Shown here: piece by piece, positions 54,845 through 57,347 of the stretch
Numbering within the stretch: position 1 is the first letter of the stretch
How the letters are laid out: each line of letters opens with the position of its first letter
Source of the DNA: Bacteroidota bacterium
GTDB lineage: Bacteria; Bacteroidota; Bacteroidia; Chitinophagales; Chitinophagaceae
Length of the DNA: 64,000 nucleotides
Assembly (NCBI GenBank): GCA_016866355.1
Contig: VGMN01000004.1
Coordinates: 1 to 64,000, forward strand
Direction of reading: 5' to 3'
The notes under the pieces: model-generated
What the model saw: only the letters and a program-made list of their open reading frames with translations
What the model was told of the DNA's origin: nothing
Database searches by the model: none
Position numbers and translations under genes: made by a program

Positions 54845-55282
54845 TTATTTGATGGGGGTACAATGCTCAGCTAAAATCTGCACTTTTCCATTCCATTTAG
54901 TGATGGTTACGCTGCAGCGTTGTCGATCATCAAAGCTTTCCCCGTGATAAATTCCTTTGCCCTTCCAAATTGTGTTTACAACGGCCGTATTTCCTTCCAA
55001 TTGGATAGTTAGATTATCTCGCTCCATGGTTTGTAACGTATAAACTTGTGAACCGGCTGTAGCAACAAGGGCGGCACGATCAAATGTTCTGCCTGATTGG
55101 GTAAAATATAGGTAATGTGGGGAAAGGACTGAGTCTACAAGAGTGGCATTCTTAGTTTTCCAACCCCGATCAAATTTTTCCATTACAGTTTGGACCTCGT
55201 CTTCAGATAGCGGTGCTTCTTGTTGCGAAGTACAGGCTGTAAAAAAAATAAAAATCAGAATGGCTAGTAATTGTTTATTCAT
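54845..55282 (-). CDS. SnoaL/DUF4440-like lipoprotein
   Basis: A 145-residue lipoprotein with lipobox FFTAC (Cys17). The mature part is a small NTF2-like fold typical of DUF4440/SnoaL-like proteins (MEKFDRGWKTKNATLVDSVLSPHYLYFTQSGRTF). The function of this subgroup is not known, and a small-molecule-binding role would be a guess. Its start overlaps the preceding gene by 8 nt, making it the last of a polX-55275-54845 unit. Confidence 0.75.
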   Translation of the reverse strand: MNKQLLAILIFIFFTACTSQQEAPLSEDEVQTVMEKFDRGWKTKNATLVDSVLSPHYLYFTQSGRTFDRAALVATAGSQVYTLQTMERDNLTIQLEGNTAVVNTIWKGKGIYHGESFDDRQRCSVTITKWNGKVQILAEHCTPIK

Positions 55283-55670
55283 TTTTTAATAATAGTTCAT
55301 ATAACTCTTTGGTCCATGCTGTCCGGTGAACTTGTGTACGGCATCCTTTTTCCGCCTCATGGACTTCTACTAACAATTGATCTTCAAATTTACTAACCCA
55401 CTGGTTTTCGTTTATGCGGATCCAACCGTAGGTAGGGTCTTTGGTTAATTGGACTACCAGTTTTTCGCATACTGCCATCTCTTTTCCAAAATAGACTTCT
55501 CTAATACAAATTTTTTCATGGTTGTAAATAAGAGATGGTTTTACTAAGCTGCGCGAACGATTTTCTTTACACCAAGCCGCTGATTTTCCAACAAAGTTTT
55601 GACAAAAACCTGTTGCCGTAATTGCAAAAAGGCAGAGGCCTAGTGTAAACAGCTTCTTTTTTTCGAACAT
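55275..55670 (-). CDS. secreted cysteine-containing protein of unknown function
   Basis: A 131-residue protein with a signal peptide (about 1-23, cut near FCQN). The mature part has four cysteines (AWCKEN, KICIRE, AVCEKL, GCRTQ), consistent with two disulfides after export. I recognise no family. It sits between the polX-like gene (9-nt gap) and a SnoaL-like lipoprotein (8-nt overlap), so all three are probably transcribed together. Confidence 0.7.
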   Translation of the reverse strand: MFEKKKLFTLGLCLFAITATGFCQNFVGKSAAWCKENRSRSLVKPSLIYNHEKICIREVYFGKEMAVCEKLVVQLTKDPTYGWIRINENQWVSKFEDQLLVEVHEAEKGCRTQVHRTAWTKELYELLLKNE

Positions 55671-55679
55671 TGCAGAAAG

Positions 55680-57347
55680 TTAACTTCTTTTTTGTTCGAC
55701 CAGCCATTGTTCAAGCTGATTTTTGTTAAAACTGCTCAAATTCATAGCAGGAGTCAAACGCGTTTTTTGTGCAACTAACACTCCATATTTGATGTCCGAT
55801 AATCCGGACAAGGCATGCGCATCTGGGTTTATTGAAATTAATACACCACGGTCAAGGGCGTAGTCTATCCATTGCCAGTCTACATCCAATCTTCTGGGAT
55901 GCGCATTAATTTCTATTGCTACTTGGCAATGGGCGCAGGCGTCTATAATTTTTTTATGATCAATTGGGTATCCCTCTCTGGATAATAGTAATCTACCAGT
56001 TGGATGTCCCAGTATGTTGGTGAAGGGGTTTTCTATGGCTTTTAGTAGTCGTTTTGTGGCAACCTCTTCAGTCATTCTAAGGTTGCTGTGAATGGAGGCA
56101 ATAATAAGATCAAATGTCGATAGTATTGCTGGCGCATAGTCCAACGACCCATCTGTGAGAATGTCAGATTCTATTGATTTAAAAATCCGAAAGGGAGCCA
56201 GTTTTTTATTTAAAGCATCAATTTCTTGATGCTGCGTAACTACCCGATCCACTTTGAGTCCGTTAGCATAGAAAGCGCTGGCAGAATGATCTGATAAAAC
56301 CATGTATTCCCATCCCTTTTCTATGCAGGATTGGGCCATTTCTTCAATGGTGTTGGCACCATCGCTCCAATTACTGTGACAATGTATGAGCCCTTTGATC
56401 GTGTCCACCTGTAGGGGAGTGGCTTGATAGGGTTTCTCCAAGTGTTTTTTAAATTCTCTTCGAGCCGGGTGTGAAACAGGAATTTTCCTATTTATAAAAA
56501 AGAGATCATCGGGCGCCTGGTATTTGGATACAGAAATACCTGACTGCTCGGGGATCGATAACAAGTGTTCATAGAACGCAGGGGTTGATGATGTTTTTAA
56601 TAAATCCAGCGGAAGGTTAGTTGAGGCAACTAATCGAATAGCTAGTCCATTTTTTAGTTTATAACAAAGGGATTGGTCAGTTTCATCGATAAGTTCAGGG
56701 GGTTGTGCAGTTAAAAATTTTTCTTTGATGGTTTCTTTTGATGCTACTACAACAAAGGCAAGTTCTTCTAGGGTGGGTAATTGTCTTCTGAAATTTCCAG
56801 TTACGGCTATATTTTCTTTACCAAATTGAAGTTCAAGGAATGACACAATTGTTGGCAATAATGCCTCAATTTCAGCGTAGAGGAAGTGTCCTTTATGCTG
56901 CAGTAAAAACCGAATAGCATTTTCAATAGCCAATTGCGTTTTTTCTCCAAATCCTTTGAAATGGAGTAGTCTGTTTTCCTGGCAAGCGTATAAAAGCTCT
57001 CCCATAGATTCTATTCCCATTTCTTTCCAAATGGTATGAATTTTCTTGGGACCTACTCCCTTTATTTGAAGCATTTCAACAACTCCAGCAGGCGTTAGGT
57101 GGAGAAATTCCTCCAAGGCATTAAGTTTCCCATGCTCCAAAAGCTCGCTGATTGCCGCCGCTACGCTATTGCCGATTCCTCGTATACTTCTCCATTTTTC
57201 TTTTGGAGTACTTACCAGGGGGAATGTGAGTTTTTCTATGGTGAAGGCTGCCGCAGCGTAAGATTTGGATTTGAACGAATCGGCCCCATGGATATCTAAT
57301 AGCTTTGAAAACAATTCAAGCTGTTCCGCAAGCTGTGTATTCTCCAT
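55680..57347 (-). CDS. polX: PolX-family protein with degenerate polymerase and intact PHP nuclease
   Basis: A 555-residue protein with the PolX layout. An N-terminal 8-kDa-like helix-hairpin-helix region has IRGIGNSVAAAISELL (55-70) and IKGVGPKK (95-102). The palm region is degenerate. Active PolX palms have GS-RRGKETVGDIDIL and a third Asp; here TGNFRRQLPTLEELAFVV and NGLAIRLV lack those aspartates. The PHP domain (about 315-555) has HCHSNWSDG, LSDHS, SIESDILTDGSLDY, ASIHS, LGHPTGR, EINAHPRR and NPDAHA, all metal-ligand motifs. It is probably a nuclease or phosphoesterase in repair, not a polymerase. Confidence 0.85.
   Translation of the reverse strand: MENTQLAEQLELFSKLLDIHGADSFKSKSYAAAAFTIEKLTFPLVSTPKEKWRSIRGIGNSVAAAISELLEHGKLNALEEFLHLTPAGVVEMLQIKGVGPKKIHTIWKEMGIESMGELLYACQENRLLHFKGFGEKTQLAIENAIRFLLQHKGHFLYAEIEALLPTIVSFLELQFGKENIAVTGNFRRQLPTLEELAFVVVASKETIKEKFLTAQPPELIDETDQSLCYKLKNGLAIRLVASTNLPLDLLKTSSTPAFYEHLLSIPEQSGISVSKYQAPDDLFFINRKIPVSHPARREFKKHLEKPYQATPLQVDTIKGLIHCHSNWSDGANTIEEMAQSCIEKGWEYMVLSDHSASAFYANGLKVDRVVTQHQEIDALNKKLAPFRIFKSIESDILTDGSLDYAPAILSTFDLIIASIHSNLRMTEEVATKRLLKAIENPFTNILGHPTGRLLLSREGYPIDHKKIIDACAHCQVAIEINAHPRRLDVDWQWIDYALDRGVLISINPDAHALSGLSDIKYGVLVAQKTRLTPAMNLSSFNKNQLEQWLVEQKRS

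Follow-up and report, generated by a model that had tools for sequence, protein, structure and literature searches.

A noncanonical PolX with a degenerate polymerase site and an intact PHP nuclease site in a small-genome Chitinophagaceae bacterium

The window analysed here is a 64,000-nucleotide stretch of contig VGMN01000004.1 (assembly GCA_016866355.1) from a Bacteroidota bacterium of the family Chitinophagaceae, the host genome being 1.76 Mb in size and 96% complete. A polX homologue occupies 55680..57347 on the minus strand, an interval which contains the whole coding sequence with its stop codon; the coordinates in the original prediction are exact and every motif quoted there was found. 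The open reading frame starts with ATG, comprises 555 codons plus stop and is undamaged. Its assignment is based on the reading frame, on the NCBIfam PolX model NF006375 and on full-length matches to the PDB relatives 2w9m and 3au2, with Deinococcus radiodurans PolX (2w9m) being the nearest solved structure by sequence, followed by Thermus thermophilus PolX. The encoded protein, window PolX, has the PolX1 architecture in the order 8-kDa/HhH, thumb, palm, fingers and PHP, all on the minus strand. The 8-kDa HhH domain (aa 1-76, 57120..57347; PF14716, E=3.4e-15) is followed by the thumb (aa 77-152, 56892..57119; PF14520 at aa 91-137), a degenerate palm delimited by alignment and predicted strands (aa 153-241, 56625..56891), apparently shortened fingers delimited by alignment (aa 242-294, 56466..56624) and the PHP nuclease domain (aa 317-552, 55692..56399; PF02811, E=5.3e-7). 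Window PolX matched the Pfam models HHH_8, HHH_5 and PHP above their cut-offs, while the Pfam search returned no palm or fingers model. NF006375 scored 361.9 bits, below its equivalog cut-off of 426, matching the N-terminal and C-terminal parts of the protein, and in the genome scan its match was split in two, at model positions 3-214 and 293-570.

At 62 of the related loci examined, rplU, rpmA and polX follow one another in this order on a single strand, and in all but one of them rpmA ends 0.25-0.75 kb upstream of polX. This order is a taxonomic marker and carries little information on function. A terminator-like hairpin at 57403-57387 suggests that polX forms a separate transcript, the number of such matches being not much above that in shuffled sequence. 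Between rpmA and polX, a 29-aa Lys/Ala/Pro-rich ORF (MATKKKAAKKKAAPKKKKAAKKKAAKKKK; 57518-57429, minus strand) resembles a histone H1 tail. Similar ORFs of 17 to ~125 aa with KAAKKAAPKK-type repeats are found in 60/62 Chitinophagaceae loci with the rplU-rpmA-polX order, the shortest occurring in the small-genome clade of the window, and may encode a putative nucleoid- or RNA-binding protein, short and variable in length, that belongs with the L21-L27 operon. An operon partnership of this ORF with polX was considered and rejected, as the ORF accompanies rpmA and not polX in a genome that has these genes at separate places (L114), and no such ORF was found in the ~1.5 kb upstream of polX at any locus without an adjacent rpmA. 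In a second genome (L113), the ORF was not found near rpmA. Just downstream of polX, a 131-aa protein without a Pfam match is encoded at 55275-55670 on the minus strand by a gene that overlaps the gene for a DUF4440 protein (54845-55282); together with a type I phosphodiesterase these two form a trio whose conservation does not extend beyond the nearest relatives (L002-L008).

Polymerase active site residues were assigned in a MAFFT alignment of 109 sequences, consisting of window PolX, the Thermus and Deinococcus enzymes reconstructed from PDB search alignments, four canonical and one Mesorhizobium PolX taken from plasmid records, and 101 other Bacteroidota homologues. Thermus numbering follows the reconstructed sequence, in which the positions of GSARR187 and YLTGSKAHS258 match the numbering in PMC9226535. 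Thermus PolX residues D198/D200/D243 align with E195/A197/R238 of window PolX. The original prediction that all three metal-binding aspartates are absent is thus borne out by the change from D-D-D to E-A-R, with the refinement that a glutamate stands at the first position and one acidic residue is left. Instead of the three acidic residues of canonical PolX, two of the three positions are non-acidic, and no acid is aligned opposite the third. The canonical dNTP-binding motif (YF/HF steric gate, GS, N) is also missing, the fingers reading KTSSTPAFY where Thermus PolX reads YLTGSKAHS, while the palm carries GNFRR at 184-188. Over matched intervals, whose boundaries differ from those of PMC9226535, the palm measures 78 residues in window PolX vs 81 in Thermus and the fingers 54 vs 65. 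Replacement of the aspartates by shifted residues was not detected by alignment, by secondary structure of the model or by Foldseek, the only acid on the triad strands besides E195 being E194. By analogy with the Deinococcus relatives that have been studied, we infer that window PolX is unable to add nucleotides.

An AlphaFold2 model built from a 41-sequence alignment has a pLDDT of 92.2 and a pTM of 0.83, and the palm strands at 195-200 and 236-241 carry all three triad positions. A Foldseek search of the PDB with this model returned first Thermus PolX (3au2, E=2.6e-43; 3au6, TM 0.80) and Deinococcus PolX 2w9m, with YcdX PHP proteins and human Pol lambda/beta among the later matches. The model predicts with confidence that the palm fold is kept despite loss of the triad. 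The original prediction described the PHP metal motifs as intact and the HhH motifs as kept, and this description holds. HhH motifs are retained at GIG57-59 in the 8-kDa domain and at GVG97-99 and GFG132-134 in the thumb, in agreement with the PF14716 and PF14520 matches, and all nine PHP metal ligands are present by alignment column (H322, H324, H354, E393, H420, H448, E479, D509 and H511).

Alteration of the triad is not confined to window PolX. None of the 102 Bacteroidota homologues, window PolX included, has three acidic triad residues; two are kept in 50 sequences, one in 45 and none in seven, with E-E-R (30), E-E-K (10) and E-A-R (8) being the commonest combinations. The full HHHEHHEDH ligand set of the PHP domain is present in 99/102, and at least two of the three exceptions have gaps or unknown residues in ligand columns. 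Mean pairwise identity in the Bacteroidota set is 0.45 for the 8-kDa domain, 0.60 for the thumb, 0.29 for the palm, 0.25 for the fingers and 0.63 for PHP, in contrast to five canonical PolX in which the fingers are the most conserved (0.57) and palm and PHP are both at 0.41. Thus, constraint in Bacteroidota has been relaxed on the dNTP side of the protein. Rough dN/dS estimates between close relatives, with dS near saturation in several pairs, are 0.04-0.07 for the palm, 0.10-0.22 for the fingers and, where computable, 0.04-0.05 for PHP. The same overall pattern across the 102 homologues, together with purifying selection on the gene, rules out a sequencing accident, and selection on the dead palm suggests that it is retained as a structure or as a DNA platform or positioning element. 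In an unrooted tree containing two long-branched rows, the five canonical PolX lie on one side of a branch with support of 100/99, and all 33 Bacteroidota sequences, as well as D. radiodurans and Mesorhizobium PolX, lie outside it. Two related genomes carry, besides the main match, a second and more distant PolX-like match (G131 C66:3025-4581 and G136 C30:25404-25967), possibly a different, separately acquired type of PolX.

These properties correspond to those of noncanonical PolX as described by Prostova et al. (2022, NAR 50:6398; PMC9226535), a group that makes up 27.5% of prokaryotic PolX and is characterized by altered triads and dNTP motifs, deletions in palm and fingers and a PHP HHHEHHEDH set that is intact in 98% of members; the shortening of palm and fingers marks many of these proteins, not all. 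Most fall into a single cluster of Bacteroidetes and Deinococcus-Thermus. Bacteroidetes PolX are mostly noncanonical, Taibaiella and Flavisolibacter being among the examples shown, and a canonical PolX was present in no Bacteroidetes genome of the non-redundant sample (PMC9226535). Better conservation of the PHP site than of the polymerase site was also reported in a 2026 survey (PMC12926913). Window PolX agrees with the group in every sequence feature that could be compared and is, by sequence, a noncanonical PolX. A polymerase-dead PolX is the normal form in Bacteroidota, making the finding correct and largely ordinary; loss of polymerase function in PolX has been in print since 2022, and window PolX does not represent a newly found kind of protein.

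The lost triad and dNTP site, taken with an intact PHP site, a retained fold and purifying selection, are best explained if window PolX is a Chitinophagaceae-type noncanonical PolX that acts as a DNA-binding 3'-end nuclease devoid of polymerase activity, with the dead palm and fingers as a scaffold, a reading that is very probably correct. The 8-kDa, thumb and HhH modules would bind DNA ends, gaps or nicks, and the PHP metal site would degrade or clean 3' ends as a Mn2+-dependent 3'-5' exonuclease, as judged from the Deinococcus relatives. AP-endonuclease, 3'-phosphatase or 3'-phosphodiesterase activity may possibly reside at the same site. Palm and fingers would have shrunk to a scaffold keeping the DNA-binding and nuclease domains in position, and the role in the cell would be 3'-end processing. 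The original proposal of a DNA-guided nuclease derived from a polymerase is accepted in its second half, which is consistent with the alignment, the model, the domain conservation and the Deinococcus biochemistry (PMC9226535). Its first half was rejected, as the protein showed no guide-binding domain or other sign of dependence on a guide; the HhH, 8-kDa and thumb modules bind DNA substrate as they do in every PolX.

Other explanations differ in which activity, if any, the protein retains. A weak or altered nucleotidyl transfer, such as terminal transfer or one-nucleotide fill-in, could proceed through E195, E194 or other carboxylates, and the presence of E195, the E-E-R or E-E-K triads of most Chitinophagaceae relatives and an earlier report of short-patch activity in D. 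radiodurans PolX (cited in PMC9226535) are in its favour. The second and third triad positions are, however, Ala and Arg, the dNTP site has gone, purer protein failed to show the activity reported earlier for Deinococcus (PMC9226535), and the 47 triad variants in 102 homologues are unlike what is seen in a working active site, making residual transfer very unlikely. That the gene is simply decaying on its way to loss and encodes no functioning enzyme might be argued from the degenerate active site and the small genome. Such decay is close to excluded by the intact frame, the near-universal conservation of the PHP ligands, dN/dS values far below 1 in both palm and PHP, and the presence of polX in 17/17 sampled genomes of the family.

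The two remaining alternatives concern the pathway in which the protein would function. The column of Pol beta Lys72, the dRP-lyase nucleophile, was placed from its position in Pol beta and from the aligned HhH motif. It contains Lys in 77/102 homologues and Ala in 10. Window PolX (Ala65) and the clade nearest to it have Ala, and D. radiodurans PolX has Glu at this column. In the clade of window PolX, dRP-lyase activity has thus probably been lost as well, qualifying the suggestion in PMC9226535 that most noncanonical PolX may keep it. In the host genome, exonuclease III/xth is represented by a homologue that scores well above cut-off and endonuclease IV (nfo, TIGR00587) has no match, a combination in which PHP-based AP-site or 3'-end processing could be useful. 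A standalone backup AP endonuclease, with PHP mainly incising abasic sites in a genome without endonuclease IV, would also fit the AP-endonuclease activity reported for PHP domains of bacterial PolX (PMC9226535); against this stand the exonuclease III homologue and the missing lyase lysine, which leave this specialization improbable, if less so than residual polymerization. A role in NHEJ, trimming ends for Ku and LigD, has been proposed for noncanonical PolX in general and is favoured by the co-occurrence of PolX with NHEJ genes in bacteria, Bacteroidetes included (PMC9226535). The host genome gave no match to Ku or to the polymerase domain of LigD, an absence that is not absolute at 96% completeness. 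Ku was found in only 6 of the 17 family genomes, and among 150 genomes of the order, with two partial PolX matches excluded, PolX was present in 16/26 Ku-positive vs 60/124 Ku-negative genomes, a difference that is not significant (Fisher p=0.28). The role of window PolX in this organism probably lies outside classical NHEJ, and an NHEJ component is given little credence for this genome.

The 3'-end nuclease reading can be extended to the family, in a form that is plausible if somewhat doubtful: in Chitinophagaceae, the dead PolX would be a near-universal, NHEJ-independent housekeeping 3'-end nuclease in which the palm serves as a DNA-positioning scaffold, the lyase of the clade is lost and PHP provides the sole activity. 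Window PolX confirms, in a small-genome, freshwater-type lineage of Bacteroidota, that evolution kept the nuclease of PolX and discarded the polymerase, and it offers a test case for the persistence of noncanonical PolX in the absence of Ku and LigD, which bears on the question of cellular role.

Compared with known systems, window PolX shares with the noncanonical PolX of PMC9226535 the altered triad and dNTP motif, the intact PHP site and Bacteroidetes origin, its fingers also appearing shortened, and differs in its E-A-R triad, in loss of the dRP-lyase lysine within a small clade and in a host genome in which no Ku/LigD was found. D. radiodurans PolX (2w9m), which among solved structures matches it best in sequence (over the full length, E=4.2e-75), likewise combines an altered triad with an intact PHP site, but the triad is A-E-E and the palm comprises 69 residues vs 78 in the same alignment interval. 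This enzyme (AEE) and that of D. gobiensis (ARE) have no polymerase activity and are PHP-dependent, Mn2+-requiring 3'-5' exonucleases (PMC9226535). T. thermophilus PolX (3au2, 3au6) has the same domain order and fold, the AlphaFold model superposing on 3au6 with the TM of 0.80 given above, but possesses the canonical D-D-D triad, the YLTGSKAHS dNTP motif and an active polymerase.
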